This document shows, one piece after another, positions 8,446-36,959 of a stretch of DNA of 49,768 nt. Under the pieces are notes generated by a model. That model did no database searches and had not been told where the DNA came from. It saw only the letters and a list, made by a program, of their open reading frames with translations. A program made the position numbers and the translations under genes. The DNA is taken from assembly GCA_013538855.1 (NCBI GenBank), contig JABXJS010000112.1:1-49768 (forward strand), in the 5' to 3' direction. The first letter of the stretch is position 1; the number at the start of each line of letters is the position of its first letter. The stretch is from Herpetosiphonaceae bacterium (GTDB taxonomy: Bacteria > Chloroflexota > Chloroflexia > Chloroflexales > Herpetosiphonaceae).

Positions 8446-8499
8446 GATCTGCTCCATGGCGCATAGATGTTCGCTCTCCAGTGTACCATGATCGACGCG

Positions 8500-9559: not shown

Positions 9560-11233
9560 TCACTCTGTAGTGCGCTTAATACTGTGCCAGTTGGGCACGG
9601 CGATGCCCAGCGGCGTAACGCTGATGCCCTGAATATCGGGCCGAATAAGCGTATTGAAGGTTGGATAGAACAGCGGCAGCCAGCCAACCTCATCGATCAC
9701 AATCTGCTCGGCGTTGACATAGAGCTGCAGGCGACGATCAAAGTCCTCGGCCTTGCCTTGTCGATCAGCCTCGTCGACCAGATTATCGAAGGCGATGTTT
9801 GAGTAGTGCCCATTGTTGTTAGGCGAGCCAGTGCGCAGCTGCTGCGACAGGAAGTTCTGCGGGTCAGGGTAGTCGGCCCCCCACACGCTGAGATACATTT
9901 GCAGCCCCGCGCTGGGTGTGTAGTAGGTGGTGTTGAGCATCTGCTCGAAATCATGCAAGGCATAGGCCTTGAGCGCAACGTCGATGCCGAGGTGCTCCTG
10001 CCAATCCTGCTGCAGATAAGCGGCCACCGCTGCGTTATCGCCCTCGTCGGCGTAGGCCAGCGTTACACTGGGAACATCGCTGCCGGCGATGTAGCCGGCG
10101 TGCTGCATATCGAGCACCGCTGCGCCTGGATCGAACTTCAGCGGCCGGATGGGCAGATCGGAGCCAACGAGGCCGGTGGGCAGAATGCGCGTAGCTGGCT
10201 CGGCTGCACCAGCGAGCACAGTATCGACCAGCTTTTCTTTATCAATCGACTGTGCGAAGGCGCGCCGCATGGCGACACGGTCAAATGGCGCTAGCTCGTT
10301 GTTGAAGCCAATATAGCGCGTGACCAGCGCGGCACTGGTGCGGAAGTCAGGCAGCTGCTTTACTTCCTCCAGACGATTGGTCGGGATCGGGTTCTGCTGG
10401 CCGCCCATGATATCAAGCTTGCCGGCGAGATAGTCGTCAAGCGCCTTCTCGCTATCGGGGTAGAAGTATAGCTCCACCTGCGGCATGCCAGCGCGGCCAT
10501 GCCAGTAGTGCTCGTTGGCGGTCAGCACAATCTTCTCGCCGTGAATCCACTCTTTCACCTGATATGGGCCAGTGCCAAAGGCCTGCTCGTGCCAGTCGCC
10601 CCCGCTCTCGACCAGCTGGCGGGGCACCACATAGGTGTAGGAGTAGCCAAGCTGCGACAAGAAAAACGCCTGCGGCTGCTTCAGTCGAATCTCCAGCGTG
10701 TGGGCATCGAGCGCGCGCACGCCGCTGGCGCTGTCCGCCGCACCGGCGGCCACCTCCTCTGCGCCCTCGATCTGAGCTAGCTGGTAGCTGGCATCATAGG
10801 TCAGCTCAGGCGAGAGCGCCCGATTGATCGAGTATACAAAATCTGCGGCGGTAACCGGCGTGCCATCGGCGAACTGTAGGTCTGGGCGCAGGAAAAAGGT
10901 GTACACACGACCGTCTGGGCTAACCTCCCAGCGCTCAGCGGCCTCCGGCTGCACCTCGAGGTTCGCATCGAGGCGGATAAGTCCGCCGTAGACCAGGCCA
11001 ATCACTATGTTGGTTGGGTTGTTGATTGGTTTGGCTGGATCAAGCGCTGCAAGGTCTTCGACCCCTTCCAACGACCAGCGCAGTGTGTCGTTTGGCGTGT
11101 CGGCCGTTGCTGTTGCTGGTACTGTTGTTGCTGCAGGTTGCGTGGGCACAGCTGCGGGAGCCGTACACGCCAGCATACTACAGAGTACGCCAATCCAAAT
11201 GAGGCTTGTTCCAATTCGGTGCGCTCGGCGCAT
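9560..11233 (-). CDS. ABC transporter substrate-binding lipoprotein, peptide/nickel type (SBP_bac_5)
   Basis: 557 residues from MRRAHRIGTS, preceded by AAGGGAG; the longer frame to 11353 runs into the divergent promoter region. A lipobox (SMLAC, Cys23) marks it as a lipoprotein, followed by an Ala/Thr/Pro-rich linker. The mature part is a complete family 5 binding protein (VYTFFLRPDLQFADGTPVTAADFVYS and the 'GADYPDPQNFL' region), the kind that binds oligopeptides in OppA/DppA systems. No permease or ATPase of this transporter lies nearby, so it is an orphan binding protein and may deliver to components encoded elsewhere. Confidence 0.92.
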   Translation of the reverse strand: MRRAHRIGTSLIWIGVLCSMLACTAPAAVPTQPAATTVPATATADTPNDTLRWSLEGVEDLAALDPAKPINNPTNIVIGLVYGGLIRLDANLEVQPEAAERWEVSPDGRVYTFFLRPDLQFADGTPVTAADFVYSINRALSPELTYDASYQLAQIEGAEEVAAGAADSASGVRALDAHTLEIRLKQPQAFFLSQLGYSYTYVVPRQLVESGGDWHEQAFGTGPYQVKEWIHGEKIVLTANEHYWHGRAGMPQVELYFYPDSEKALDDYLAGKLDIMGGQQNPIPTNRLEEVKQLPDFRTSAALVTRYIGFNNELAPFDRVAMRRAFAQSIDKEKLVDTVLAGAAEPATRILPTGLVGSDLPIRPLKFDPGAAVLDMQHAGYIAGSDVPSVTLAYADEGDNAAVAAYLQQDWQEHLGIDVALKAYALHDFEQMLNTTYYTPSAGLQMYLSVWGADYPDPQNFLSQQLRTGSPNNNGHYSNIAFDNLVDEADRQGKAEDFDRRLQLYVNAEQIVIDEVGWLPLFYPTFNTLIRPDIQGISVTPLGIAVPNWHSIKRTTE

Positions 11234-11270
11234 AGTACACTCCCTTGGGTTGTAGTGGTTGATTGGTGCT

Positions 11271-11298
11271 GTGACGTCACGAATTCCCACAGTATAAT
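11271..11298 (+). promoter_or_regulatory. Divergent promoter region with TATAAT and a perfect palindrome
   Basis: TATAAT (11293-11298) lies 37 bases before the start of the plus-strand secreted protein; read on the other strand the same bases give TATACT-like sequence facing the binding-protein gene. GTGACGTCAC (11271-11280) is a perfect ten-base palindrome between the two genes. The -35 elements are weak, so strand-specific assignments are uncertain. Confidence 0.4.
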
Positions 11299-11335
11299 CG
11301 CTGTGTCCCTGTATTGTAGACCAGAAGGAGGATCT

Positions 11336-13576
11336 ATGTTTCGATGGCCGCAACGTTTTGTGCTGGCTCCGCTGTTCCTTATTGGCCTGATTAGTCTCTT
11401 AGGCCTGGGCACAGTGGCCCAAGCAATGTTTACCCGTGCTGCCCCTGCATCTCCTTCGTCAATCCAAGGACTTCCTGTTGGTTTCGCCCCCGGCAACTTA
11501 GTTGTCGTCCGCGTCGGCGATGGCTCGGCCGCCCTTTCTGGTGCCGCAGCTCCGGTGTTCCTTGATGAGGTGCGCCCCGAGGGCAGCGTGGTGCAGAGCG
11601 TCGCCATGCCCACCAGCGTGATGACCGACAACGCACGCCTGACCCTCTCCGGCAGCGCAACATCCGAGGGCTTTCTGAGTCGCTCTGCGGATGGCCGCTA
11701 TCTCGTGTTGGCTGGCTATGATGCTGATGTTGGCACGGCCTCGGTTGTCAATACCTCCGCTGCGGTTGTTAATCGTGTTGTTGCACGTGTGGATGCCGTG
11801 CTCAATGTTGATACGTCAACACGCATCATCGATGGCTTCAACAACGCGAATGTGCGCAGTGTTGCCTCCGATGATGGCTCCCGCTTCTGGGTTGCTGGCA
11901 ATGGTGCGCTTGGCACTGGCGGCATTCGCTATGTTCCGCTGGGCAATGTGCTCTCCACAACGCAGGTGCTCACAACGCCCAACAACGCGCGCGTCGCCGA
12001 GATTTTCCACGACCAGCTGTATCTCTCGACTGGCTCAAGCCCCTACAATGGCGTGAACCTGGTTGGGATGGGCTTGCCCACCACGCCAACCACCGCCACG
12101 CTGATCACGGCGACCACCAGCACCAGCCCCTACGACTATGTCTTCCTTGATCGCTCCGCCGCCGTGGACGGCGACGACACGCTGTATGTCGCGAGCCAAA
12201 ATAATGGTTTGCTCAAATACTCTTATGATGGCAGTCAGTGGACGAGCCAGGGCTCCCTCAGTGGCGTGATGAGCGGCATCGTTGGCGTGATCAGTGGCAC
12301 CGAGGCGCTGCTCTACGCCACCAGCGGCTCAAGTACGAGCACCATCACCGCTGTTGTGCGGCTGGTGGATAGTGCCTTTTATGATCAGCCGCTCGACATC
12401 ACATCCAACACCACCGTGATCACCGCTGCCAATAATGCGCGGTTCCGCGGCCTGGCCTGGGCACCCTCACAGCCGCCAACGATCACCGCTGTGAACCCAG
12501 ACAACACACTGGCTGGCCTCAGCTCGACGCCAAACGTGGTGATCAGCGGCATCAACTTTAGCTTTAATGCGCAGGTCTATTTTGGCACACAGCTGGCCAC
12601 ATGTGTAGTGGAAGATAGTACTCGTATCGTATGCGACGCTCCGGCTAACTTCAGCGTCGGCTCTGTCGATGTTACGGTGCTGAATCCTGGCGCAAGCGGC
12701 GACACGCTCGTCGATGGCTTCACCTACACCGGCGTCGCCAACGAGAGCGATACGCCCGGCGAGGCCGACTACTGCGTCCTACAGTTCCCGCCCACGCTGA
12801 GCGTCACGAGCACGATGACTACGCCTCCGATCTATGGCCGCATCTACGAGGCTGGAGTGACCGAACCGGCTGGTGCGCCGGCTGGTGTCACCGCCGAGGT
12901 CGGCTACGGCCCCGATGGCTCCGACCCAACGTTGAGCAATGCGTGGCACTTCTTCGCTACAACCTACAATGTTCAGGCCGGTAATGACGACGAGTTCCAG
13001 GGCATGTTTATGGCTCCGACGGTTGCGACAACCACAACCTTCGCCTACGCCTATCGCTTCTCGCTCGACGGCGGCCAGAACTTCACCTACTGCGATCTCA
13101 ATGGCGCAGGCTCCAACGCTGGGCTGACCTTCGAGCCAAGCCAGCTCGGCGAGCTAACGGTGCTTCCACAGGCTGGCAGTACGACGCCGACGCCGACGAT
13201 GACGCCAACACCAGGCACGATCACGCCGACGGCGACCACGACACCGACGATGACGACCACGCCAGGCACGATCACGCCGACGGCGACCACGACGCCGACG
13301 ATGACGACGACGCCAGGCACGATCACGCCAACGGCGACCACGACGCCGACGATGACGACGACGCCAGGCACGATCACGCCAACGACGACGCCGACGCCGA
13401 CGATGACGACGACGCCAGGCACGATCACGCCAACGACGACCACGACGCCGACGATGACGACCACGCCAGGCACGATCACGCCAACGACGACGACCACGCC
13501 AGGCACGCCGACGCCGACGGCGACACCGCAGACCAACCTGCCGTTTAAGGTGTATCTGCCGCTTGTGCTCAAGTAA
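11336..13576 (+). CDS. Secreted TIG-domain protein with Thr/Pro repeat linker and VYLPLVLK tail
   Basis: 746 residues from ATG 11336 with AAGGAGG upstream; the longer frame to 11138 overlaps the divergent gene. A signal peptide (FVLAPLFLIGLISLLGLGTVAQA) begins the product. The first half looks like a beta-propeller-type beta-strand protein. A TIG/IPT domain (PPTITAVNPDNTLAGLSSTP and DGFTYT) lies at about residues 380-465, followed by a second beta domain. Then come six 17-residue units of the kind TMTTTPGTITPTATTTP and the C terminus PFKVYLPLVLK. Similar terminal motifs are common on secreted Chloroflexi proteins, from memory. It is likely cell-surface or extracellular; ligand unknown. Confidence 0.88.
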   Translation: MFRWPQRFVLAPLFLIGLISLLGLGTVAQAMFTRAAPASPSSIQGLPVGFAPGNLVVVRVGDGSAALSGAAAPVFLDEVRPEGSVVQSVAMPTSVMTDNARLTLSGSATSEGFLSRSADGRYLVLAGYDADVGTASVVNTSAAVVNRVVARVDAVLNVDTSTRIIDGFNNANVRSVASDDGSRFWVAGNGALGTGGIRYVPLGNVLSTTQVLTTPNNARVAEIFHDQLYLSTGSSPYNGVNLVGMGLPTTPTTATLITATTSTSPYDYVFLDRSAAVDGDDTLYVASQNNGLLKYSYDGSQWTSQGSLSGVMSGIVGVISGTEALLYATSGSSTSTITAVVRLVDSAFYDQPLDITSNTTVITAANNARFRGLAWAPSQPPTITAVNPDNTLAGLSSTPNVVISGINFSFNAQVYFGTQLATCVVEDSTRIVCDAPANFSVGSVDVTVLNPGASGDTLVDGFTYTGVANESDTPGEADYCVLQFPPTLSVTSTMTTPPIYGRIYEAGVTEPAGAPAGVTAEVGYGPDGSDPTLSNAWHFFATTYNVQAGNDDEFQGMFMAPTVATTTTFAYAYRFSLDGGQNFTYCDLNGAGSNAGLTFEPSQLGELTVLPQAGSTTPTPTMTPTPGTITPTATTTPTMTTTPGTITPTATTTPTMTTTPGTITPTATTTPTMTTTPGTITPTTTPTPTMTTTPGTITPTTTTTPTMTTTPGTITPTTTTTPGTPTPTATPQTNLPFKVYLPLVLK
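13196..13501 (+). repeat. Six tandem 51-bp repeats inside the secreted protein gene
   Basis: Units start at 13196, 13247, 13298, 13349, 13400 and 13451 and keep the reading frame, each coding 17 residues of Thr/Pro linker with a Gly-Thr-Ile core. The units differ mainly by synonymous or Ala/Thr changes. Such linkers are usually glycosylated spacers; the unit number could vary between strains. Confidence 0.9.
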
Positions 13577-16616: not shown

Positions 16617-17528
16617 ATGACCCCGCTTATTCAAGTTGAAAATGTTAAAAAATCTTTTGCTGGCGTTGACGCTGTGCGCGGCGTGAGCTTTCAAGTGAAT
16701 CAGGGCGAGCTGTTTGGCATGCTTGGCCACAACGGTGCCGGCAAAACCACAACGATTCGCATGATTCTCGATATTCTGCGCCCCGACAGCGGCTCAATCG
16801 CCGTTCTCGGCGGCCCGATCAGCGAAGAGAAGAAAAATAAAATCGGCTACTTGCCCGAGGAGCGTGGTCTCTATCGTAATCTGAAGGTGGTGGACTGCAT
16901 GGTCTACCTCGCGTCGCTCAAGGGCCTCGAGCGCAACGAGGCGCGCCGCCGCGCCATGGACTATCTGGAGCGCGTGGATCTAGCGCAGGTTGCCAACAAG
17001 AAGGTCAGCGAGCTGAGCCGCGGTATGCAGCAGAAGGTTCAGTTTGGCACCACGATTCTCCACGAGCCGGAGATCGTGATCATCGACGAGCCATTCGCCG
17101 CCCTCGATCCGGTCAACACCCGCCTGGTCAAAGAGCTGCTGCTCGATATTCGCCGCTCTGGCCGCGCGGTGCTGATGTGCACCCACCAGATGCACCTAGT
17201 TGAGGAGATGTGCGACCGCTTGGTCATGTTCAGCAAGGGCAAGATTGTGCTCCACGGCTCGCTCAAGGAGGTGAAGCGCCGCTTTGCGCCCAACGCAGTG
17301 CTGGTTGAGGGCACTGGCAACTTTGCCGATGTTCCCGGCGTGCTCAGCGTCCAGGCGCACAACGGGAGCCAGCAGCTCAACCTTGATGATAGCATCTCGC
17401 CGCAGGCCGTGCTGCAAACCTTGGCCGCGCGGTCAGATGTAACGATCGAGCGCTTTGAGGTGGCTGTGCCGTCGCTCGACGATATCTTTGTGCGCGTGGT
17501 CAGCGGCGAGGCGACGGACCATGAATAA
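16617..17528 (+). CDS. ABC transporter ATP-binding protein (NatA-like)
   Basis: 303 residues from MTPLIQVENV with GGAGGA eight bases upstream. Walker A GHNGAGKTT (37-45), signature LSRGMQQK (133-140), Walker B IVIIDEP (153-159) and switch His190 are intact. The last 80 residues match the C-terminal extension (DUF4162 type) of NatA-like exporters. It drives the two permeases that follow; it overlaps the first by eight bases. Family members export sodium, antibiotics or other compounds; the cargo is unknown. Confidence 0.95.
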   Translation: MTPLIQVENVKKSFAGVDAVRGVSFQVNQGELFGMLGHNGAGKTTTIRMILDILRPDSGSIAVLGGPISEEKKNKIGYLPEERGLYRNLKVVDCMVYLASLKGLERNEARRRAMDYLERVDLAQVANKKVSELSRGMQQKVQFGTTILHEPEIVIIDEPFAALDPVNTRLVKELLLDIRRSGRAVLMCTHQMHLVEEMCDRLVMFSKGKIVLHGSLKEVKRRFAPNAVLVEGTGNFADVPGVLSVQAHNGSQQLNLDDSISPQAVLQTLAARSDVTIERFEVAVPSLDDIFVRVVSGEATDHE

Positions 17529-20052: not shown

Positions 20053-20092
20053 ACAGCGGCCCTGCTGGCATATGCCGGGGGCCGCTGCTGTT
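20053..20092. terminator. Bidirectional terminator between convergent genes
   Basis: ACAGCGGCCC (from 20053) pairs with GGGCCGCTG-GT-type sequence (20078-20090), with an inner GGCATATGCC palindrome as loop, and is followed by TTTAAT. It lies between the ABC operon and the convergent minus-strand gene at 20092. Confidence 0.65.
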
Positions 20093-20706
20093 TAATCTTC
20101 CTCGGCGGCGGCGCGATTACGCTCGTCGCGCAGCAGGCGCACAAGGTTGTCGGGGTCGTCAATGGCGTGCAAAATTGCTGCGATGATCACCGTATCGGTT
20201 GGGTCGAGGTCGGCCAGCAGGCGCTCGCGCTGTGTAGAGCCAGCGAGGATCAGGCGGATGCGCTGGGCCAGCGTCTGCCACTCATCCTGCTGCTCGAGCT
20301 GCGGCAAGAAGCCGTCGATGTCTTGGCGCGCTTGGTTGATGTCCAGCGCCGCTGCTGCTACGGTGAGGATCACTGGCCGCCAGCTGGCGATAACCTGGGC
20401 GATGCGATCCGCCTCGGGGTCTGGCGCGTAGTGCTCGATGGCGTCCAGTGTGGCACTGATAATCGCAGCGCTGTTGCTGTCGAGGCCGCTGGTTAGCGCT
20501 GCGCGATCACGCTCGCCGGCCCAGATACGCTGGACAGCGGCGCTGATGTGCCAGCCATTGTTATCGAGCTGCGGCAGCAGATACTCGATCTCGGCACGGC
20601 GCGTGGTGTCGCCGTTGGCGATGGCTGCAATCACGCTGATCAGCGGCGCAAAGTGCGCCACAGCATCGTGGGCAGCGCGGGGAAAGAGTGGGTGGAGTTC
20701 GGGCAT
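20092..20706 (-). CDS. Hypothetical protein with a tandemly duplicated domain
   Basis: 204 residues from MPELHPLFPR, chosen because AAGGA lies upstream; the frame extends six codons further. No membrane segment or signal. Two similar halves are seen: 'LISVIAAIANGD...LLPQLDNN...RIWAG...LDSNSAAIISATLDAIE' (about 20-95) and 'VILTVAAAALDI...FLPQLEQQ...LILAG...LDPTDTVIIAAILHAID' (about 110-185). Both are helical and share LPQL, LAG and IIxAxLxAI. I do not recognise the family and assign no function. It ends in the convergent terminator. Confidence 0.8.
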   Translation of the reverse strand: MPELHPLFPRAAHDAVAHFAPLISVIAAIANGDTTRRAEIEYLLPQLDNNGWHISAAVQRIWAGERDRAALTSGLDSNSAAIISATLDAIEHYAPDPEADRIAQVIASWRPVILTVAAAALDINQARQDIDGFLPQLEQQDEWQTLAQRIRLILAGSTQRERLLADLDPTDTVIIAAILHAIDDPDNLVRLLRDERNRAAAEED

Positions 20707-20769
20707 AGCTGTTCCTTCCTGCAAGCAAATGCTGCGCTCATGCTACCATGGCCGACAGGCTTTGCCGAC

Positions 20770-21213: not shown

Positions 21214-22323
21214 ATGGAGGTTAAGCTGCATCCGGCGATGCAGGCGGCGCTGGCTGCGGCCGATCAGGCGCTCGGCCGCACCAGCCCCAATCCGCCTGTT
21301 GGCGCGGCTGTGTGGGCGGCAGATACGCTCATTAGCACGGGCTGGACACAGCCGCCAGGTGGGCCACACGCCGAGGTGGTGGCGCTGCAGACAGCTGGTT
21401 CACGTGCGCGCGGGGCCGAGCTGTATGTCACGCTAGAGCCATGTACAATTTGGGGCCGCACGCCGCCATGCACCGACGCAATTGTTGCCGCTGGCATCCG
21501 GCGCGTGGTGATTGCTAGCCGTGATCCTAACCCGCGCTTTGAGCGCGATGCGGCTAGTGTGCTGCAGGCGGCTGGCATCGAGGTGGCCTTCGATCCCGCC
21601 GCGCAGCCACACGCCGAAGTGCAGACCGAGGCGTTTCGCCGCTGGATCACCACCAAGCGGCCTTTCGTGAGCGTTAAGTACGCCATGACCCTGGACGGCA
21701 AGATCGCCACCTATACCGGCGACTCACGCTGGATCACCAGCCCGCCTGCGCGACAGCGCGTCCATGCGTGGCGCGACCAGGTCGATGCGATCCTGGTTGG
21801 CGTGGGTACGCTGCTGGCCGATGATCCACTGCTGACCACACGGATCGATCAGCACTGGCGGCCGGTGCGCCATCCGCTGCGCGTGATCGTTGATGCCCAT
21901 GGTCGCACCCCGGCGAGCGCGGCCATGCTCCAGCCAGCTGTGCCTGGCACCACCGTGATCGCAACGACGGCGGCGGCTACGCCAGTATGGCGTGCCAGCA
22001 TCGCCAATGCTGAGATCATCGAGTTGCCTGCCAATCCCGCTGGTCAGGTGGAGCTTGGCGCGCTGTTGGATTGGCTCGGTCAGCATGACATAACATCGCT
22101 CATGGTTGAGGGTGGCGGCACCATCATCGCCAGCTTTCTGGCGGCTGGGCTGATCGATAAGCTGCTGGTGTGGATCGCGCCGAAGCTCATTGGCGGAGCC
22201 AGCGCGCCGACGCCAGTTGGTGGGCCTGGCATTGCGCTGATGCAGCAGGCGCACACCTTCACCTGGCAGCAGATCGAAACCATCGGCCCAGATTTGCTCG
22301 CCGTGGCCTATCCCGTCCGGTGA
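21214..22323 (+). CDS. ribD: Bifunctional riboflavin deaminase/reductase
   Basis: 369 residues, ATG preceded by GGAGGAACC. The deaminase half has the zinc site HAE (52-54), Cys77 and Cys86 (EPCTIWGRTPPC); the reductase half begins near 148 with the 'PFVSVKYAMTLDGKIAT' segment and ends with the VEGGG and 'GPDLLAVAYP' parts. It converts the product of GTP cyclohydrolase II to 5-amino-6-ribitylamino-uracil phosphate. First gene of the riboflavin operon; ordinary length. Confidence 0.96.
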   Translation: MEVKLHPAMQAALAAADQALGRTSPNPPVGAAVWAADTLISTGWTQPPGGPHAEVVALQTAGSRARGAELYVTLEPCTIWGRTPPCTDAIVAAGIRRVVIASRDPNPRFERDAASVLQAAGIEVAFDPAAQPHAEVQTEAFRRWITTKRPFVSVKYAMTLDGKIATYTGDSRWITSPPARQRVHAWRDQVDAILVGVGTLLADDPLLTTRIDQHWRPVRHPLRVIVDAHGRTPASAAMLQPAVPGTTVIATTAAATPVWRASIANAEIIELPANPAGQVELGALLDWLGQHDITSLMVEGGGTIIASFLAAGLIDKLLVWIAPKLIGGASAPTPVGGPGIALMQQAHTFTWQQIETIGPDLLAVAYPVR

Positions 22324-22388
22324 TACAATAAAATCAGGTTTTTGTGCAGATTGCTGTCACCATCAGGATTTTTAAACAGGGAGCACGC

Positions 22389-22994
22389 ATGTTTACGGGA
22401 ATTGTGGAAGAAATTGGCTCAGTGCGCGAAGCGCTGACCGGACGCGAGCGCGATAACGAGCTTGTGATCGCGTGCTCGACGGTGCTTGGCGATGTGCGGC
22501 TTGGCGACAGCATCGCGGTCAGCGGCGTCTGTCTGACAGTAACCGCCTGGGGTGAGGATTGGTTTCGGGTCGGGCTGGCCCCCGAGACACTGCGGCGCAC
22601 CACGCTCGGCCAGCTGCGCGCTGGCGATCCGGTCAATCTAGAGCGTGCAGTGGCGGCGGGGCAGCGCATGGGCGGCCACTATGTTCAGGGCCATGTCGAT
22701 GCGACAGGCACAATTGTCGCTATTGGCCGCGAAGGTGAGTCGAAGATTATTACGATCGAGGCTCCACAGGCGCTGATGCCGTATATTGTTGAGAAAGGCT
22801 TTATCGCTGTCGATGGCACAAGCCTGACGATCACCGCCACCACCGCGCACACCTTCAGCCTGGCCATCATCGCGCATACGCAGGAGTGGGCGATTATTGG
22901 CCGTCAAACGGTCGGCGATCAGGTTAATCTGGAGGTCGATATTCTGGCGAAGTACGTTGAGAATATTCTGCTGCGGCGCGAGCAGACGGTCTAG
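22389..22994 (+). CDS. ribE: Riboflavin synthase alpha chain
   Basis: 201 residues starting MFTGIVEEIGSV, the hallmark N terminus, with AGGGAG upstream; the longer frame to 22344 lacks support. Two lumazine-binding repeats are seen, the second with MGGHYVQGHVDATG and a late 'VNLEVDILAKYVE'. It dismutates two lumazines into riboflavin and the pyrimidine. Called ribE here (ribC in E. coli naming). Confidence 0.95.
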   Translation: MFTGIVEEIGSVREALTGRERDNELVIACSTVLGDVRLGDSIAVSGVCLTVTAWGEDWFRVGLAPETLRRTTLGQLRAGDPVNLERAVAAGQRMGGHYVQGHVDATGTIVAIGREGESKIITIEAPQALMPYIVEKGFIAVDGTSLTITATTAHTFSLAIIAHTQEWAIIGRQTVGDQVNLEVDILAKYVENILLRREQTV

Positions 22995-22996
22995 CG

Positions 22997-23749
22997 ATGT
23001 ATAGCGCCTATGCCCGCTACTACGATGCCGGCCAGCTGCACTTCAGCGTGCTCATGTACACCTATTTGGCCGATATTCTCGATCAGCATGCGCCATGCGA
23101 GCAGCCTGGACGCTGGGTTGATCTCGCCTGTGGCACAGGGACGCTGGCGCTGATGCTGGCCGACGATGGCTGGGATGTGCTGGGCATCGATGCGGCGACA
23201 GCGATGCTGCAGGAGGCACAGCGTAAGGCCCGCCGCAGTGCTGGTCTGCAGCGCTCAGTGCGCTTTCGGCGCGCCGATATGCGCGACTGGCAAGTTGACA
23301 CGCCGGTGGATGTGGTCTCGTGCTGCTTCGATAGCCTGAACTACTTGCTCGACCTAGCCGATATCGAGGCAACGTTTCGCGCCGTGCATGCGGCGCTGCG
23401 GCCACAGGGGCTGTGGCTGTTCGATATGAACACACCATATTTCTTAGAAACAGTCTGGCAGCCGGTTGAGGTCGAGGAGCGTGCAGGCTATGCGCATGTG
23501 ATGCGCTCCGATTTCGATGCCGAGCGCTGCATCTCGTGGCTTACACTGATTGGCTTTTCGCGCCGCGCCGACGGCCTGTATGCTCGCTTTGAAGAGCAAC
23601 ATGCCGAGCGCGGCTATTCCGCTGCGACTGTGCAGCACGCTTTAGAGGCAGTCGGCTTCAGCATTGAGGCCTGCTACGACTGCTTTGTGCTGAGCGAGCC
23701 AGTGCCCGAGAGCCACCGCTGGTTCTGGGTGGCGCGCAAAGCACCTTAA
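22997..23749 (+). CDS. Class I SAM-dependent methyltransferase inside the riboflavin operon
   Basis: 250 residues from [10 protein letters not shown], starting two bases after ribE. Motif [16 protein letters not shown] (about 42-56), acidic motif II '[15 protein letters not shown]', and '[12 protein letters not shown]' (binding of adenine) are clear; it resembles the Methyltransf_25/UbiE-like group used on small molecules. Not a known step of riboflavin synthesis. Its close spacing on both sides says it is co-transcribed with rib genes. Substrate unknown. Confidence 0.9.
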
Positions 23750-23769
23750 TTCTCACGCAGGAGTTAATA

Positions 23770-24978
23770 ATGACCCTAGCAACAGTTGAAGCTGCCATTG
23801 CGGACTACGCCGCTGGCAAGATGGTGATCATCGTTGATGATGAGGATCGTGAAAACGAGGGCGATCTGGCCTGTGCGGCGCAGTTTGTGACGCCGCAGTC
23901 GATCAACTTCATGGCCAAGGAAGGCCGTGGCTTGATTTGCCTCGCGATCACCGGCGATCGGCTCGACGAGCTGGAGATCCCGATGATGGTCGGCTCGAAT
24001 AACTCGAAGTTTGGCACCAACTTCACCGTGTCGATCGAGGCTGCTCACGGTGTGACCACCGGCATCTCGGCCCATGATCGCGCCCATACGATTCAGACCG
24101 TGCTCAATCCTTCATCGACGCCCGATGATATTGCGCGGCCTGGCCACGTCTTCCCACTGCGCGCTGTCGAGGGCGGCGTGCTGCGGCGCGCTGGTCAGAC
24201 CGAGGCCTCGGTTGATCTGGCGCGGCTGGCGGGCCTGTACCCAGCCGGCGTGATCTGCGAGATTATGAACGATGATGGCACCATGGCGCGCATGCCGCAG
24301 CTAGAGGAGTTTGCCGCCAAGCATGACTTAAAGATCATCAGCGTTGCCCAGCTGATCGCCTATCGTCGCCAGCGTGAGTCGTTGGTGCGACGCACGGCAG
24401 AGGCGCGCCTGCCCACGCGCTACGGCGAGTTCAAGATTGTGGCCTACGATACCGATCTGGAGCCAAACGAGGCGGTTGCGCTCGTGATGGGCGACATCAG
24501 CACCGCCGACCCTGTGCTTGTGCGCGTACACTCCGAGTGCCTCACCGGCGATGCCTTCGGCTCGCTGCGCTGCGACTGTGGACCACAGCTCGACCACGCC
24601 ATGCATCTGATTGCCGAGGAGGGTCGCGGCGTGCTGCTCTATCTGCGTCAGGAGGGCCGCGGCATCGGGCTGACCAACAAGGTGCGCGCGTACATGCTGC
24701 AGGATGAGGGCCTGGATACGATCGAGGCCAACGAGAAGCTGGGCTTCCCGGCTGACCTGCGCGACTACGGCGTGGGCGCGCAGATCCTCGCCGATCTTGG
24801 CCTGCGCAAGCTGCGCCTGCTGACCAATAATCCCAAGAAGATTATTGGCTTCGATGGCCACGGCCTTGAGGTCGTCGAGCAGCTGCCGCTCAATACGCCA
24901 TCTAACCCCGAGAATCGCGAGTATCTGCGCACAAAGCGCGAGCGCATGGGACACACCTTGTTGTTGGAGAACGAATAG
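23770..24978 (+). CDS. ribBA: Bifunctional DHBP synthase / GTP cyclohydrolase II
   Basis: 402 residues. The N half (to about 200) carries the DHBP synthase motif [11 protein letters not shown] and '[30 protein letters not shown]'. The C half is GTP cyclohydrolase II with '[18 protein letters not shown]' (zinc Cys residues near 257 and 268-270) and '[13 protein letters not shown]'. Both halves look complete, so the enzyme supplies both branches of riboflavin synthesis. It starts 20 bases after the methyltransferase and abuts ribH. Confidence 0.96.
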
Positions 24979-25446
24979 ATGCAGACCTACGAAGGCAACT
25001 TGATCGGCACCGATCTACGCATCGGCATTGTCGTGGCGCGCTGGAACGAGTTCATCGGCGGCAATCTGCTGGCAGGCGCGCTTGATACCCTGCGCCGCCA
25101 CGGCGTAAATGAGGCCAATGTCGATGTGGCCTGGTGTCCTGGCTCGTTTGAGATACCGCTTGTCGCGCAGCAGATGGCCGCCAGCGGTCGCTACGATGCG
25201 GTCATCACGCTTGGAGCTGTCATTCGTGGTGCAACCTCGCACTACGATATTGTGGCCAACGGCGTCGCCAGCGGCGTGGCCCATGCGATGCAGACCACCG
25301 GCGTGCCGATCTTGCTCGGTGTCCTGACCACCGACACCATCGAGCAGGCGATCGAGCGCGCGGGCACCAAGGCTGGCAACAAAGGCTCCGAGTGCGCCGT
25401 CGCCGCGATCGAGATGGTTAATCTGCTGCGGCAGATCAAGGGCTAG
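24979..25446 (+). CDS. ribH: 6,7-dimethyl-8-ribityllumazine synthase
   Basis: 155 residues beginning one base after ribBA. Conserved parts: 'ARWNEFI', 'CPGSFEIPL', '[16 protein letters not shown]' and the late '[14 protein letters not shown]' . It joins ribitylaminouracil with dihydroxybutanone phosphate, forming an icosahedral or pentameric shell in the family. Last gene of the operon, followed by a hairpin. Confidence 0.96.
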
Positions 25447-29118: not shown

Positions 29119-30096
29119 GTGAGCCGTTTTGATGAGTTGCGGATCTTCAGCGGGACGAACAATCCTGCGCTAACCCAGGGCATCTGCTCGTATCTTGGTC
29201 TGCGGCAAGGCGAGGTGGAGATACGCACGTTTCCGAACGATAATATTTTTGTGAAGATCCACGAGAGCGTGCGCGAGCAGGATGTGTTTGTGGTGCAGTC
29301 GCTGGGACTGCCGCTGAGCCACACGATCATGGAGTTGCTGATCCTGCTCGATACGCTGCGGCGCTCCTCGGCTGGCCGCATCACGGCGGTGCTGCCCTAC
29401 TTCGCCTATGGTCGCACCGATAAAAAAGATCAGCCGCGCGTGCCGATCACGGCGCGCCTGCTGGCCGACCTGATCGTGACCGCTGGGGCGCAGCGCGTGC
29501 TCACGCTCGATCTCCACGCCGGTCAGATTCAAGGCTTCTTCTCTGTTCCTGTCGATGAGATGAGCGCGGTGCACCTGCTGATCTCTGAGGTGCGCTCATG
29601 GGGCTTGGAGCAGCCGATTATTGTTTCGCCTGGCCTGGGCTTTGCCAAGCGCGCCCGCAACTTCGCCGAGGCGCTGGAATACCCGCTGGCCCTGGTTGAG
29701 AAGCGGCGGGTCAACCATCAAGATGGCTCCGTTGGCCACCTGATGGTGCTTGGCGATGTCGCCGGCCGCGACTGTGTGATCGTCGATGATGAGGTTGCCA
29801 CCGCCCACACCATTACGCGCGTAGCAGAGCTGCTGATGAGCCAAGGCGCGCGCAGCGTTCAGGCCTGCTGCATTCATCCCATCCTCTGCGCAGGTGCGAT
29901 TGAGCGTATTCGCGCTAGCGCAATCACCCGCTTTGTCACCACCGATACGCTCGATATTCCCGAAGATCAGCGCTGGGATGGCCTGACTGTGAAGTCGGTG
30001 GCACCACTGCTGGGCGAGGTGATTCAGCGCATCCATACCGGCATCTCGGTCGGCGCGATGTTTCCCGAAGGGCAGCCCCAGGTTGGGCGCTGGTAG
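29119..30096 (+). CDS. prs: Ribose-phosphate pyrophosphokinase-like protein (PRPP synthetase family)
   Basis: 325 residues from GTG with AGGAGG upstream. ATP region 'PYFAYGRTDKKDQPRVPITAR', 'LDLHAGQIQGFF' and 'KRR' are present. However, the ribose-phosphate loop reads VDDEVATAHT where the usual form is DDMIDTAGT, and the 'SPDxGG' segment reads SPGLGFAKRA. These are departures from the classical catalytic enzyme and from the paralogue class I know best. It may be a divergent functional copy or a regulatory paralogue. Symbol given with caution. Confidence 0.8.
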   Translation: MSRFDELRIFSGTNNPALTQGICSYLGLRQGEVEIRTFPNDNIFVKIHESVREQDVFVVQSLGLPLSHTIMELLILLDTLRRSSAGRITAVLPYFAYGRTDKKDQPRVPITARLLADLIVTAGAQRVLTLDLHAGQIQGFFSVPVDEMSAVHLLISEVRSWGLEQPIIVSPGLGFAKRARNFAEALEYPLALVEKRRVNHQDGSVGHLMVLGDVAGRDCVIVDDEVATAHTITRVAELLMSQGARSVQACCIHPILCAGAIERIRASAITRFVTTDTLDIPEDQRWDGLTVKSVAPLLGEVIQRIHTGISVGAMFPEGQPQVGRW

Positions 30097-30110
30097 TTTG
30101 GTAATACACT

Positions 30111-31754
30111 ATGACCTCTGTGCAAACCCGCACGACGGATGTACTGGTGATCGGCGGCGGCGCGACTGGCACCGGCGTTCTGCGCGACCTGGCGCTGCGG
30201 GGCATTCGCGCCCTGCTGGTCGAGCGCCGCGATCTGGCCGATGGCACGACCGGGCGCTATCACGGCCTGCTGCACTCTGGCGCACGCTATGTGCAGCGTG
30301 ACGCCGAGGCCGCCCGCGACTGCGCCCGCGAGAATCAGGTGCTGCGCCGCATCATTCCCCATTGCATCGAGGATACGGGCGGCCTGTTTGTCTCGACGCC
30401 CTGGGACCCGCTGCGCTACGCCGAGGACTTCGCCGGCCTGTGCTACGCCGCTGGTGTGAAGGCAGAGCCGGTGAGCCTGCGCGAGCTGCGCAAGCGTGAG
30501 CCAAACCTGCACCCGCATATCTCGCACGCCTTTGCTGTGCCCGATGCCGCCGCAGACTCCTTTTTGACGGTCGAGGCCAATGTGCGCTCGGCCCGCGAGT
30601 ACGGGGCCGAGGTGCTGCGCTACCACACCGTGCGCGCGCTGCACGTTCACGGCGGCCGTGTCCTAGGGGCGCTGCTGGAGAACACGCGCACCGGCGAGGA
30701 GCTGCGCATCAACTGCGCCTATGTGATCAACGCCGCTGGCGCATGGGCTGGGCAGATCGGGCACATGGCCGGTGTGCCCATCGACATCGTGGCCGGCAAG
30801 GGCGTGATGATCGCCTTCAATCACCGGCTCGTCAACACCGTCGTCAATCGCTGTAAGCCGCCTGGCGACGGCGATATTATGGTGCCAATTCGCACCGTGG
30901 CGGTCGCTGGCACCACCGACGAGGCGGTGCCGAACCCCGACGACCGCTCGATTACCGCTGCCGAGATCGACTTGATCATGGAGGAGGGCGAGCGCATGAT
31001 CCCGGGCCTGCTGCAGGCACGCATGTTGCGTGCATGGGCTGGGGTTCGCCCGCTCTACCGTGAGTCGAGCGCCGTCGATGATCGTGACCTGAGCCGTGAT
31101 TTCAAGGTGCTCGATCACCAGACGCGCGATGGGGTTGCTGGCCTCGTCTCGATTGTTGGCGGGAAGTACACCACCTACCGCCTGATGGCCGAGCGCACCG
31201 TCGATGTCGTCGCTGGCTACTTGGGTGTGACGACGGCCTGCCAAACTGCTGTCGAGGTGATCCCGCCGCCGCAGCAGCGGCGCTTGTTTACGCAGGGCCA
31301 GCCGCTGGCGCAGGTCGAGGCCGCCGCTGCTTTCGGTGATCCCGTCTGTGAGTGCGAGCTGGTCTCGCGCCAGCAGGTCGAGGCCGCCTGGCGCGGCGAC
31401 GCCACCAGCATCGACGATCTGCGCCGCGATACGCGCGTGGGCATGGGGCCATGCCAGGGCGGCTTCTGCACCTATCGCGCCGCCGCCTTGCGCCACGAGG
31501 TTGGGCGCGCCGACGCTGGCGCTAGCGTGCAGGCCATCCGGCGCTTTTTACAGGAACGTTGGCGCGGCGTCGCCCCGGTGCTCTGGGGCGATCAGCTGCG
31601 CCAGGCCCGCTTGGATGAGCTGATCTTCCAGGGCCTTTTGAATGTCGCGGAGGATGAGGATGTGTGGACGCTATTCGATCACGACCGATCCGCAGAAGCT
31701 AGCGCAGCGCTTCCAGGCCAAGCTGCCGACGGAGCCGATCCCAACCCACTATAA
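30111..31754 (+). CDS. glpA: Anaerobic glycerol-3-phosphate dehydrogenase subunit A-like (FAD)
   Basis: 547 residues. FAD site GGGATGTG (15-22), the DAO-type core, 'GGKYTTYRLMAE', then a BFD-like domain with Cys pairs (CECE near 405 and GPCQGGFC near 450) that binds an iron-sulfur cluster in the family. E. coli GlpA is of similar length. It oxidises glycerol-3-phosphate to DHAP. No glpB or glpC is next to it. The last ~31 residues (from about 517) overlap the SRAP gene in another frame; homologous GlpA usually ends near 'FQGLLN', so this tail looks like an extension. Confidence 0.88.
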   Translation: MTSVQTRTTDVLVIGGGATGTGVLRDLALRGIRALLVERRDLADGTTGRYHGLLHSGARYVQRDAEAARDCARENQVLRRIIPHCIEDTGGLFVSTPWDPLRYAEDFAGLCYAAGVKAEPVSLRELRKREPNLHPHISHAFAVPDAAADSFLTVEANVRSAREYGAEVLRYHTVRALHVHGGRVLGALLENTRTGEELRINCAYVINAAGAWAGQIGHMAGVPIDIVAGKGVMIAFNHRLVNTVVNRCKPPGDGDIMVPIRTVAVAGTTDEAVPNPDDRSITAAEIDLIMEEGERMIPGLLQARMLRAWAGVRPLYRESSAVDDRDLSRDFKVLDHQTRDGVAGLVSIVGGKYTTYRLMAERTVDVVAGYLGVTTACQTAVEVIPPPQQRRLFTQGQPLAQVEAAAAFGDPVCECELVSRQQVEAAWRGDATSIDDLRRDTRVGMGPCQGGFCTYRAAALRHEVGRADAGASVQAIRRFLQERWRGVAPVLWGDQLRQARLDELIFQGLLNVAEDEDVWTLFDHDRSAEASAALPGQAADGADPNPL

Positions 31755-32319
31755 CGCTGCGCCGACCCAGCGCCTGCCCGTTGTGGTGCTGGCAGACGAG
31801 CGCCAGATTGAGCTGTTTCGCTGGGGCCTCGTGCCCCACTGGGCCGATGATCCTGGCATCGGCAATCGCCTGATCAACGCACGCGCCGAGACGGTGGCGC
31901 AAAAGCCCGCCTTCCGCGATGCCTTCAAGCAGCACCGCTGCTTGGTGCTCGCCGACAGCTACTATGAGTGGCAGGCCGGTGCCAACGGTAAGACGCCCTA
32001 TCGCTTTGTGCTGGACTCCGGCGAGCCGTTCGCGTTTGCTGGTCTTTGGGCCGAGTGGAAGGATGCCAACGGCGATCCGCTGCGCTCGTTCACGTTGATC
32101 ACCACCAGCCCCAACGCCACCACCGCGCCAGTGCATAACCGCATGCCGGTTATCTTGCGGCCTGAGGCCGAGGCGCGCTGGCTTGATCCCGCTACCCACC
32201 CCGCCGAGCTGCACGAGCTGCTCCAGCCCTATCCCGATGACCAGATGCACGCCTATGCGGTCTCGAAGCTGATCAACTCACCAAGCAACGACTCACCGGC
32301 GGTCATTGAGCCGGCCTAG
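31660..32319 (+). CDS. SRAP (SOS response-associated peptidase/HMCES) protein
   Basis: 219 residues from ATG 31660, chosen because MCGRY places the catalytic Cys at residue 2 after Met removal, as required in this family; GGAGGATGAGG lies upstream. The segments 'NARAETV', 'RCLVLADSYYEWQ', 'FAFAGLWAEW' and 'TTSPNATTAPVHNRMPVIL' (conserved Asn, Glu, His) match. SRAP proteins covalently protect abasic sites in single-stranded DNA. It overlaps glpA by 95 bases in a different frame. YedK is the E. coli homologue, from family knowledge. Confidence 0.95.
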   Translation: MCGRYSITTDPQKLAQRFQAKLPTEPIPTHYNAAPTQRLPVVVLADERQIELFRWGLVPHWADDPGIGNRLINARAETVAQKPAFRDAFKQHRCLVLADSYYEWQAGANGKTPYRFVLDSGEPFAFAGLWAEWKDANGDPLRSFTLITTSPNATTAPVHNRMPVILRPEAEARWLDPATHPAELHELLQPYPDDQMHAYAVSKLINSPSNDSPAVIEPA

Positions 32320-32352
32320 ACCTGCTGCGTTAAGCTCTCGATTACGCACTTT

Positions 32353-32395
32353 AAGCGCCCAATGCCTACGTGATTCTTAGGCGTTGGGCGCTTTT
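32353..32395 (+). terminator. Terminator after the SRAP gene
   Basis: AAGCGCCCAATGCCTA (32353-32368) pairs with TAGGCGTTGGGCGCTT (32378-32393) with one mismatch, followed by TT and a short CGCTTTT repeat set (32390-32420). Confidence 0.75.
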
Positions 32396-32493
32396 GGGTC
32401 GCTTTTGGGCCGCTTTTAGGCCGCCACAAGCCAGTTCAGCTTTGCTATGGTTAGAGGTGCATCCCACCCTTTTAAGCATAGCGAGGTACTGTT

Positions 32494-34287
32494 ATGGTGT
32501 ACAAACGGATCAAACGCTGCTGGATTGTGCTCGCTCTTCTCCTGTTCTGTGTGCCTGGTCTCCCTGCGGCAACCTCTGCGCAAAGTACGCTTGGCACCTA
32601 CTCCGCTGGCCCACCTGGTGTGCGCTGGGGGCAAGATCGCATCAATCAGCGCTATGGGCCGCTCGATACCAACGCTAGCCTTGGCAGCCACACTGGCAGT
32701 AGTGTGCATGTGTTTGTTCTCGACACGGGCATCAACTACAACCACAACGAGTTTGTGCGTGCGCCTGGCGGACCGTTTGATCGCAACATCGATCTCAATG
32801 GCAGCCGCAACTTTGTGCCTGATCGGCCCGTCAATCAGCCGATTACGCAGGCCAACGTTGGTGATATTTTTGACTGCGATGGGCATGGAACGGCCACCGC
32901 TTCGATCATCGGCGGTCGCTATCGCGGGATTGCGCCGAATGTCACTCTGCACATTGTGCGTGTTGCCGGATGTGCCGGGAGTGTGAACTCGACCGCCGTG
33001 CAGATTGCTGGCATTAACTATGTCGCCAACACCGTGGCTGCTTGGCGCGGCAGCGGCTGGAATCAGCCGGTGATGGCGGTGCTCAATATCGGCGGCGTGC
33101 GCCAGGCCGAGAACCCCAATGACTACGCCCAGTATGTCGCTGCGGTCAATAACCTGGCCAATGGTGTTGGTGTGCCCACCTTCGTGACGGCCCACAACTA
33201 CAATACTGGCGCATGTGCGCCCTACGGTGCCAACGCCGCCCTGGCGACGGTGCCGCACGTGATCACGGTTGGCGCAGTCAATCGCCTCGATCAGCGCCCG
33301 CGCCTGCTCAACAGCGATGTCTCGCCGCCATACACGCAGGCCAACTGGACGCTCAATGGCTCTGGCACTGGCTGGGGCAGCTGCGTGGACTTGCTGGCTC
33401 CCAATGATGGCGAGTATGTGGCGACTATCAGCGGCGGCCTGTGCTATACAGCACCCGATGGTGTGGATCGCTCTAATCGCTGCTCAAGCTACTTTTTTGG
33501 CGGCTCCTCGGCGGCAATGCCGCACGCCGCTGGTATCGCCGCCCTGTGGCTGGAGCAAAATCACGGCTACGGCCAAAGCGCCTCGGGCGCGGCCGCCCTG
33601 GAGGTCGATATGATCCGCGCAGCAACCAAGGGCGTGCTCTACAACGCCTCCAATAGCGCTTCCGCTGGCAGCGCCGCCACACCGGCGAGCCTTGGTCCGG
33701 GCACGCCCAATCGGCTGCTGTTCGCCTTCCCAGTCGCTCCTAGCGCGAATGCCTGGGGGCCGCTGCGCCGCTACTACAACGCAACAACCCACAAGCATTG
33801 GGTCAGCACGCTGCCACCGCCGCCGGGCTTTGTGCAGGAGGCTGCCTGGGGTATCGAGGAGGGTTCTGTGGTGCACGTGGTCAACGCCCCTGGCGGCGTG
33901 CGCTTGCCCTGGCTGCCCGATGGCGCGACGCTGCCCAATAGCGGTGGGTTTGTGGAAACCTACACCTCGCTGACTCGTCCGCTCTACAGCTGCATCGTCT
34001 ACAATCCGCTCGATCCGGCAGGCAGCGTGCGCACGATCCCCTCGCTGGACCCTGGCTGCGAGGGGCTGCCCAATAACCATCCCAACCCGAGCTATCGCCA
34101 TATCCAGATTGGCCATATCTTCGCTTTTCCGGCCAATGGGGCGACACTGGCCCTGTACCGCTGTATCACCTTTGATGGCCAGGATCACTACCTCTCGCCT
34201 GCTGCGAACTGCGAGGGTGCCGGAACGTCGGAGGGCCGCACGCCCAGCGGCGCTCCCGCCCCAATCGGCTACGTCTTTGGCAATTGA
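32494..34287 (+). CDS. Secreted subtilase (S8 peptidase) with C-terminal repeat domain
   Basis: 597 residues with a signal peptide (about 1-29). Catalytic Asp77 (VLDTGIN), His131 (DGHGTATAS) and Ser339 (GGSSAAMPH) are in order; the Ser motif is GSS rather than the usual GTS, and the oxyanion Asn is within 'TAHNYNTG'. After residue 420 the protein has two or three repeats of the 'LYRYYN...HWVST' kind, comparable to DUF5648-like domains known from extracellular enzymes. It is probably an exported protease. Promoter boxes were not clear; GAGG lies before the ATG. Confidence 0.92.
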   Translation: MVYKRIKRCWIVLALLLFCVPGLPAATSAQSTLGTYSAGPPGVRWGQDRINQRYGPLDTNASLGSHTGSSVHVFVLDTGINYNHNEFVRAPGGPFDRNIDLNGSRNFVPDRPVNQPITQANVGDIFDCDGHGTATASIIGGRYRGIAPNVTLHIVRVAGCAGSVNSTAVQIAGINYVANTVAAWRGSGWNQPVMAVLNIGGVRQAENPNDYAQYVAAVNNLANGVGVPTFVTAHNYNTGACAPYGANAALATVPHVITVGAVNRLDQRPRLLNSDVSPPYTQANWTLNGSGTGWGSCVDLLAPNDGEYVATISGGLCYTAPDGVDRSNRCSSYFFGGSSAAMPHAAGIAALWLEQNHGYGQSASGAAALEVDMIRAATKGVLYNASNSASAGSAATPASLGPGTPNRLLFAFPVAPSANAWGPLRRYYNATTHKHWVSTLPPPPGFVQEAAWGIEEGSVVHVVNAPGGVRLPWLPDGATLPNSGGFVETYTSLTRPLYSCIVYNPLDPAGSVRTIPSLDPGCEGLPNNHPNPSYRHIQIGHIFAFPANGATLALYRCITFDGQDHYLSPAANCEGAGTSEGRTPSGAPAPIGYVFGN

Positions 34288-34360: not shown

Positions 34361-34909
34361 CTACAGCTTGAGCGCATTCGACTGGCGCACCCGCTCCAGT
34401 ACGTTGATTGTGCGCTGCTCGGCGGTGCTGTCGATCTGCTTGTTGATGCTTGTCGCAATGTAGCGCTTGATCTGGCCGTCAAGGTCGGTGAACTGCTGAA
34501 CAAGGCTCAGACCGTTTTGGCCGCTTGTGCGCACGTTGATTGCGTCGGCCTTAACTGGCGCGACATCCAGCCACAGGACCAACATCGGCTGCGCCCGCAG
34601 CGTTAGCTGTAGCTCGGTGCTGACCTGGATCGTATAGCTCTCTGAGTACAGCCCAGCTAGCCCGATGCTCAGGTCAAGGTCGATGCCGAGTGGTGCGCAG
34701 AAGACGATCTCGCGCTGGATTTGGCCGCTGTTCAGGCGCTCGACGCTGCCAACAGCAACGCTGCCGCTGCCGCTAATGCCGGTCGTGTCGACCTGCACGT
34801 CTGGCTTGATTATCCGCCGCAGGTTGGCCTCGACCAGCTCTGGCGTGATGACCAGATCCATCCACTGCTCGCCCCACTCGGCGAAGCTAATCGTGCGCTC
34901 TTGGGTCAT
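34361..34909 (-). CDS. Hypothetical protein, 182 residues
   Basis: AAGGAGATACGT upstream supports the ATG. No signal peptide, membrane segment or recognised motif; the sequence mixes beta-rich strands (IDLDLSIGLAGLYSES, QLTLRAQPMLVLWLDV) and a helical C-terminal end. Pattern is that of a soluble, possibly lipid-binding beta protein but I would not assign that. Nothing in the neighbourhood decides it. Confidence 0.75.
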   Translation of the reverse strand: MTQERTISFAEWGEQWMDLVITPELVEANLRRIIKPDVQVDTTGISGSGSVAVGSVERLNSGQIQREIVFCAPLGIDLDLSIGLAGLYSESYTIQVSTELQLTLRAQPMLVLWLDVAPVKADAINVRTSGQNGLSLVQQFTDLDGQIKRYIATSINKQIDSTAEQRTINVLERVRQSNALKL

Positions 34910-35030: not shown

Positions 35031-36959
35031 ATGGCTGAGCTGCCCCTGCGACGTCTCGTGCTCTACAAGCACGGTGTTGGCTATTTCGAGCGCCGTGGCA
35101 CGTTTGAAGGTACTTCGCTGTCGCTGCACTTCAGCCGCGAGGCCATGGACGATGTTCTCAAAAGCTTGATCGTCATTGAAATGTCCGAGGGCCGCGTCCG
35201 CGGCATCGACTACGAGCGCCCCGAGTCGTGGAGCGGACGCCGCATGGACCTTGGCCCCGACCGCACCATCCGCGATCTTATTCGCGAGCTGCGCGGCCGC
35301 AAGGTGCGCGTGGCCCTCAACGATGAGTCGGTCGTCGATGGCCTGATGATGGGCATCGACGAGGTCGAGGCCGACGAGCCGCTTGCCGCCAGCCTTGTCT
35401 CGGTCTACCGCGCCGATGTGCGCCAGGTCGTCACCTACGCGCTCGGCACTCTGCGCGGTATTCAGCTGCTGGACAGCGCCGCCGATGAGGTCTCCTGGTC
35501 GCTGCGCTCCGGTGCCGAGGTCAGCGAGGATCGCACGGCCACCATCCAGCTCGATCCTGGCAAGCACGAGCTGCTTGTGGCCTACCTGGCCCCAGCCCCT
35601 AGCTGGCGCGTGAGCTACCGCCTGATGGTCGATAAGATCAACGAGGAGATCCCCGAGCTGCTGCTGCAGGGCTGGGGCCTGATCGACAATGTGCTCAACG
35701 AGGACCTTAACGATGTGCGCCTATCGCTGGTCGCTGGCCGCCCGGTCTCGTTCCGCTATGCGCTCTATGAGCCGCAGCAGCCGCAGCGTCCGCTGCTGAC
35801 CGACTTGGTCGCGCCAACGCCGCCCCCGCCGCCGATGCGCAAGCGCGCGATGGCCCCGCCCGCCGCGCCCATGGCCGCCGCCTTCTCCCTATCTGCCGAT
35901 GAGGCCGACGAAGTACACTCGCTGATGGATCAGGCCGCCGAGGCCGCACCCGCCGCCGCTGAGGGTGCGGCGCAGGGCACGCTCTTCCGCTACGATGTGC
36001 GCGAGCCGATCAGCGTTGGCCGCGGGCGCTCGGCGCTGGTGCCGCTGCTCAATCTGCGCACCAACTGCCGCCGCGAGCTCGTCTACGTCGGTCGCCAGCG
36101 CGAGCGCCACCCCATGACCTTGGTGCGCTTCGATAACACCAGCGGCTTTGCCCTGGAGCGCGGCCCCGTCACCATCATCGAGCAGCGCTCCTACGGCGGC
36201 GAGGCGGTTATTCCCTGGACGGTCGAGGGCGGCGAGGTCAGCATCCGCTACTCGCTGGCCCTGGAGTTGACCGTGCGCGAGGAGTATAAGTCCGAGCAGT
36301 GGACCCGCCGCCTGCGCCTCGGCCGCGACCTGCTCATCCACGAGGTCGAGGACTGCCTCACGACGATCTATGTTGCCGCCAACACCGCCAGCGAGGAGCG
36401 CGTCATCAGCATCGAGCATCCGATCAGCACCGGCTATGAGATCTTCGACACCGCAGTGCCCGAGGAACAAACCTCCAACACCGCTGTCTGGCGTATTCCG
36501 GTGCCTGCGCGCGGCGAGGCCGCCCTGCGCGTGCGCGAGCGCCGCCTCATCGAGCGCTCCGAGGCCATTCGTAATCTTTCGTTCGATCAGCTGCGCCGCT
36601 ACCTCAGCGAGCGCATGCTCGACCAGACCACCGTCACCGAGCTGCGCAGTGTGCTCAGTATCTACGCCCGTCTCGACGCCATTCGCCAGCGCTATGCCGA
36701 GCTAGAGCAGCGCCGCAAGCAGCTCCACGAGCAGCAAACCCAGGTGCGCGGCAACCTCGATGTCCTGCACACCGAGGGCGAGGAGGGCGAGCTGCGCACC
36801 CGCTACATCGCCACCCTCGCCGCCAGCGAGGACGAGCTGGTCAAGCTGCGCGAGGAGGAGACCACCCTGCGCGCCGAGGAGCAGCAGCGCCGCAGCGAGC
36901 TAGAGGCGTACCTGCGCACCTTCGGCGGCTCCGAGGGCGGCGCGGCCTATCCCGCTTAG
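35031..36959 (+). CDS. DUF4139-domain protein
   Basis: 642 residues from MAELPLRRLVLYKHGVGYFERRG, with GGAGG upstream. Beta-rich DUF4139-like regions (about 165-240 and 310-500) flank an Ala/Pro-rich linker (about 265-310). The end (about 540-630) is a long coiled coil rich in Glu, Arg and Gln. In the better known 'mucoidy inhibitor A' proteins the coiled coil precedes DUF4139; here it follows it. No signal peptide, so probably cytosolic. Function unknown. Confidence 0.85.
   Translation: MAELPLRRLVLYKHGVGYFERRGTFEGTSLSLHFSREAMDDVLKSLIVIEMSEGRVRGIDYERPESWSGRRMDLGPDRTIRDLIRELRGRKVRVALNDESVVDGLMMGIDEVEADEPLAASLVSVYRADVRQVVTYALGTLRGIQLLDSAADEVSWSLRSGAEVSEDRTATIQLDPGKHELLVAYLAPAPSWRVSYRLMVDKINEEIPELLLQGWGLIDNVLNEDLNDVRLSLVAGRPVSFRYALYEPQQPQRPLLTDLVAPTPPPPPMRKRAMAPPAAPMAAAFSLSADEADEVHSLMDQAAEAAPAAAEGAAQGTLFRYDVREPISVGRGRSALVPLLNLRTNCRRELVYVGRQRERHPMTLVRFDNTSGFALERGPVTIIEQRSYGGEAVIPWTVEGGEVSIRYSLALELTVREEYKSEQWTRRLRLGRDLLIHEVEDCLTTIYVAANTASEERVISIEHPISTGYEIFDTAVPEEQTSNTAVWRIPVPARGEAALRVRERRLIERSEAIRNLSFDQLRRYLSERMLDQTTVTELRSVLSIYARLDAIRQRYAELEQRRKQLHEQQTQVRGNLDVLHTEGEEGELRTRYIATLAASEDELVKLREEETTLRAEEQQRRSELEAYLRTFGGSEGGAAYPA

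Follow-up and report, generated by a model that had tools for sequence, protein, structure and literature searches.

A 95-base overlap of glpA with an SRAP gene in a Herpetosiphonaceae bacterium, probably a passive outcome of a changed downstream neighbour

In a 49,768-nucleotide stretch of contig JABXJS010000112.1 (assembly GCA_013538855.1; 6.3 Mb in 285 contigs) from a Herpetosiphonaceae bacterium, hereafter the window, the gene for GlpA, subunit A of anaerobic glycerol-3-phosphate dehydrogenase, runs in another reading frame over the start of a gene for an SRAP (YedK/HMCES family) protein. We regard this as probably a real, passive overlap that followed a change of neighbour at the glpA junction. 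In kind it belongs with the ordinary long overlaps in phase 1 that arise by 3' extension, and does not look like a new sort of arrangement. An earlier note, made from the sequence alone, had drawn attention to the 95 bases shared by the two frames, and these were indeed found, with the glpA stop codon included (Table 1). Here, the glpA frame stays open without a stop up to a TAA that is made from TAT-AAC codons in the HYN motif of SRAP, while the SRAP frame opens with ATG-TGT. Similarity to GlpA proteins in frame reaches LLNV, which ends at 31646, and similarity to SRAP proteins starts at 31660.

Table 1. Positions of the genes and junction features within the window
Feature	Positions	Strand	Details and basis
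Ribose-phosphate pyrophosphokinase (prs-like) gene, upstream of glpA	29119-30096	+	matches Pribosyltran_N and relatives
glpA open reading frame, including read-through tail	30111-31754	+	547 amino acids; TAA at 31752-31754
Junction: last glpA codons ahead of the overlap, where relatives' GlpA nearly ends	31647-31659	+	sequence against relatives' ends
Shine-Dalgarno-like GGAGG	31649-31653	+	6 bases before SRAP ATG; sequence
Out-of-frame TGA	31655-31657	+	2 bases before SRAP start; sequence
glpA/SRAP overlap, GlpA tail and SRAP N-terminus in different frames	31660-31754	+	95 bases including glpA stop
SRAP (YedK/HMCES family) gene	31660-32319	+	219 amino acids, MCGRY start; PF02586 full length
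TAA ending glpA, made from TAT-AAC codons of the SRAP HYN motif	31752-31754	+	sequence

The identities of both proteins are well marked. GlpA scores 644.8 bits against TIGR03377 (cut-off 552.8) and 509 against NF008313 (cut-off 425), and carries the FAD and BFD-like [2Fe-2S] domains of the dehydrogenase subunit as Pfam matches to DAO (residues 10-356) and Fer2_BFD (residues 412-459), all of which stop short of the overlap. The TIGR03377 match identifies it as a dehydrogenase subunit, and not as the oxidase that the earlier note had taken it for. The SRAP frame from 31660 spans PF02586 from 1 to 214 of 214 (E 7.6e-77), in agreement with the MCGRY start proposed before, and its product is of ordinary length when set beside the 217-219 residues in the Herpetosiphon loci read. 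MCGRY, NARAE, YYEW, and HNRMP are all present in the SRAP translation, and these motifs presumably hold the counterparts of the YedK residues Cys2, Glu105, and His160. These residues of YedK, and its chemistry through the α-amino group and thiol of Cys2 once the methionine is removed, are described in PMC9436759. Judged from the family match, the window SRAP most likely works like other YedK/HMCES proteins. A mechanical open reading frame (ORF) finder puts its start at 31642 (MSRRMRMCGRY), yet we prefer 31660, because Cys2 must adjoin the initiator methionine and because GGAGG lies at 31649-31653, and the start at 31642 thus seems unlikely.

For comparison with relatives, a search of the family gave nine genomes, six of which belong to one genus that we take as Herpetosiphon, while two further ones, about 75% complete, held no close GlpA. 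Over the common part, the window GlpA is 71-72% identical to the GlpA of the Herpetosiphon genus, which in all six loci stops 15 or 16 residues after WGDQLRQARLDE, or 6-7 residues after LLNV. Half of what the earlier note had named as refuting its view is thereby borne out, glpA in each of these relatives ending at this point. Their glpA stop overlaps the next gene by a single base (TAATG) in L003, L006, and L007 and by four bases (ATGA) in L004, L005, and L008, the end in L008 being judged by eye since the automated comparison chose a longer ORF there. In the one locus scanned (L143), this next gene encodes a DUF1232 protein. By contrast, the window GlpA continues for 44 residues past the motif WGDQLRQxRLDE, and its read-through tail comprises residues 517-547. 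This motif-to-end comparison rests on the 28 of 30 glpA loci that carry the motif (L021 and L027 lack it and were dropped). The tail had been described as lying beyond the point where GlpA proteins usually end, and so it does relative to the Herpetosiphon genus, but not relative to the rest of the order (21 loci), where GlpA extends 26-40 residues past the motif and the window tail is just 4-18 residues longer. Kinship between the window tail and those of the 21 loci was considered and rejected, as they look different by eye. A tblastn match of the tail in L004, reaching query residue 545, was likewise set aside as an artefact, the alignment crossing the stop codon of that gene.

On its upstream side, glpA adjoins prs both in the window and in all six Herpetosiphon-genus loci (L003-L008), whose prs is about 77% identical to that of the window. 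The gene downstream of glpA, in contrast, differs between the window and Herpetosiphon-genus lineages. In all six genomes of the genus, SRAP (56-57% identical to that of the window) lies on another contig or more than 1.6 Mb from glpA, and it has other neighbours in the regions read, whereas the sole match to the DUF1232 protein in the window genome is found on a separate contig (C116; 54% identity). Moreover, among 152 loci, many with a flank of only 1.5 kb, glpA (identity of 45% or more) occurs in 35 and SRAP in 113, and the two are found together in no loci but L001 and L002, both of them the window itself. This pairing is too narrowly confined to uphold the link between a metabolic enzyme and DNA protection that the earlier note had read into it. 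A check for long ORFs in the 101 SRAP loci that have 400 or more upstream bases gave three (L038, L067, and L083) whose overlap with other SRAP genes reaches 20 bases or more; having no Pfam match, they were taken as spurious.

The coding signal in the shared bases is one-sided. A codon model trained on the window genes that lie outside 30000-32400 gives the GlpA tail -0.08 bits per codon, whereas 31-codon windows of GlpA have a minimum of 0.15 and a median of 0.39. For the overlap, the model gives 0.30 in the SRAP frame, whose G+C content at third codon positions (GC3) is 0.80, and -0.13 in the glpA frame, whose GC3 is 0.50; the ordinary coding signal here belongs to the SRAP frame. As for the length of the tail, 19 of 88 other SRAP genes keep the corresponding frame open for 31 codons or more (the median over the genes being 14), and in seven of the 88 its first stop falls at the same Tyr-Asn place, two of these seven (L035 and L116) being from one genome. 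The 88 genes are what was left of 108 SRAP loci after 20 were dropped, as only the plus strand was read and an ATG-TGY-GG start and the histidine motif were required, and they are not independent, some Herpetosiphon genomes being counted twice from two collections. Given loss of the stop, so long a tail is thus not unusual and calls for no explanation of its own.

From these observations, the origin of the overlap might be pictured as follows. The prs-glpA pair, conserved in the family, would have acquired SRAP as its downstream gene in the window lineage, and because the glpA stop of the relatives overlaps the start of the next gene by one or four bases, a change of neighbour there would remove that stop. 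The glpA frame would then run passively over the first 31 SRAP codons to the TAA in the Tyr-Asn codons of HYN, whereas SRAP would be translated from its own Shine-Dalgarno sequence and ATG at 31660, with Cys2 kept, and the GlpA tail would be a tolerated, unselected C-terminal extension. The frames, the conserved upstream and different downstream genes, and the codon signal are observed, whereas it is by inference that the window lineage is taken as the one that changed, that the change of neighbour would have caused the loss of the stop, and that the tail would be neutral; bearing on the first of these, what follows glpA in most loci from other families of the order is a GlpB-like gene. As the relatives have another gene downstream, a rearrangement at the junction is likelier than a point mutation confined to the stop codon. 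The earlier note had offered stop loss or sequence error, which is the right pair of explanations to weigh, but its further idea that stop loss exposed the SRAP start is not supported, since the window SRAP has its own GGAGG and start and is a separate gene in all six Herpetosiphon-genus genomes.

Two published accounts of overlapping genes serve as reference here, those of Fonseca et al. (2013; PMC3887535) and Palleja et al. (2008; PMC2478687). A further system for comparison is the Herpetosiphon-genus junction, at which prs-glpA is likewise followed by a gene whose start meets the glpA end, but with another downstream gene, a glpA stop in place, and an overlap of one or four bases as against 95. 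The window case also resembles the long unidirectional phase-1 overlaps of PMC3887535, in which the stop of the first gene is lost and its frame reaches the first in-frame stop inside the second; phase 1 is where long overlaps predominate, 95 equals 2 modulo 3 and hence phase 1 by our reading of the examples given, and long phase-1 overlaps are said to need no selection. Unlike those cases, the window has a downstream gene other than that of the relatives. In PMC2478687, the corresponding class is that of the class iii long overlaps, with a class mean of 121 bp. The window GlpA reaches 44 residues beyond the motif, as against 15-16 in the Herpetosiphon genus, and the downstream SRAP is of ordinary length, which gives the overlap the form of the 3'-extension type.

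Several points weigh against the reading that we favour. Were a base lost or misread, the out-of-frame TGA at 31655 would make the junction an ordinary one; PMC2478687 counts no real case among 715 co-directional overlaps longer than 60 bp; and the window genome is the sole one of its genus among the nine of the family. The first two points feed the chief alternative, a sequence or assembly error of one base that makes the overlap only apparent, the true glpA stop being the TGA at 31655-31657. We hold this to be unlikely, if still worth serious attention. Such an error would have to sit in 31647-31655, because GlpA similarity continues in frame through LLNV. The TGA is suitably placed for it, the glpA of the relatives ends at this point with overlaps of one or four bases, and all 715 long co-directional overlaps in PMC2478687 are ascribed there to error, 68 of them being upstream 3'-end extensions by frameshift or stop mutation. 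But the different neighbour would supply a biological reason for the window overlap, and chance commonly puts a stop in another frame only a few codons away (perhaps one time in five by our own, uncomputed estimate). Moreover, the nine bases in question hold no homopolymer longer than 2, which is also the longest in the junction as a whole, where GAGGAT occurs twice in tandem at 31650-31661. Genome quality speaks to the matter only weakly for a single site: no internal stop was seen among the 96 ABC_tran matches listed for the window genome (150 of 259 candidates scored, six matches partial, and the test better suited to nonsense codons than frameshifts), and 25 of the 30 window ORFs scanned have a Pfam match.

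Explanations that give the overlap a function fare much worse than the passive overlap that we favour. Selection on the shared bases, whether because the GlpA tail is constrained or because glpA ribosomes crossing the Shine-Dalgarno sequence and start of SRAP regulate it, appears very improbable. GlpA elsewhere in the order (21 loci) does extend 26-40 residues beyond the motif, which indicates that a tail of roughly such length is tolerated, though these tails look unrelated by eye, the window tail has a codon use below that of every GlpA window, the pairing is confined to the window's own loci among the 152, and the RNA of 31610-31700 folds no better than shuffled versions (z 0.29). Slightly more doubtful again is a fuller version, by which the tail would be made and kept, translation of glpA over the SRAP start would tune the dose of the abasic-site protection protein, and the end of the overlap would be fixed by the SRAP Tyr-Asn codons. 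Least credible of all is a functional operon uniting glycerol metabolism with abasic-site protection. The two genes do overlap on the same strand, and as a consensus scan of the plus strand from 29244 to 32700 gave no sigma-70-like site, their co-transcription is plausible. Against such an operon are the co-occurrence of the genes in the window's loci alone, within the flanks noted above, and the other neighbours of SRAP in the Herpetosiphon-genus regions; comparing neighbours across the 152 loci gave no evidence of a functional link between the GlpA and SRAP proteins.

Regarding the tails of GlpA more generally, in most of the 21 other-family loci with their GlpB-like gene (by eye) after glpA, the tail often reads GGGLVTxHPAxATE, and the GlpB-like product scored over the TIGR03378 cut-off in the two checked (G011 and G013). 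Such a tail is missing from GlpA in all six Herpetosiphon-genus loci, and three of these genomes, when checked, had glpB at another place; in the window genome, glpB is on contig C205. A link between this tail and glpB adjacency is possible. On contig C116 of the window genome (L149, minus strand, 1495-1896 and 1857-2462), the DUF1232 gene comes after lspA-like and aldolase-like genes (named by eye), and overlaps the latter by 40 bases with a longest-ORF start.

Elsewhere in the window, other same-strand overlaps with longest-ORF starts are found at 4401-4464 (minus strand, 64 bases) and 17455-17528 (plus strand, 74 bases), both perhaps reflecting mispredicted starts of the downstream genes. 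Coding-like ORFs with no Pfam match at 0.001 lie at 7066-8457, 11138-13576, 20092-20724, 34361-34909, and 35031-36959 (463, 812, 210, 182, and 642 residues, respectively), the first overlapping a DUF58 gene by 353 bases as called and the last having a high GC3 (0.86). A riboflavin cluster (RibD-like, lumazine-binding, DHBP synthase/GTP cyclohydrolase II, and DMRL synthase) occupies 21214-25446, with a methyltransferase gene at 22997-23749 within it. The window gave no Rfam match at gathering score and no tRNA.

For annotation, the SRAP gene should begin at 31660 and not at 31642. The junction shows in readable form, as a single case, one way in which long same-strand overlaps may come about, through a difference in the downstream neighbour where stop and start touch, and it cautions against reading meaning into the C-terminal extension of this GlpA.
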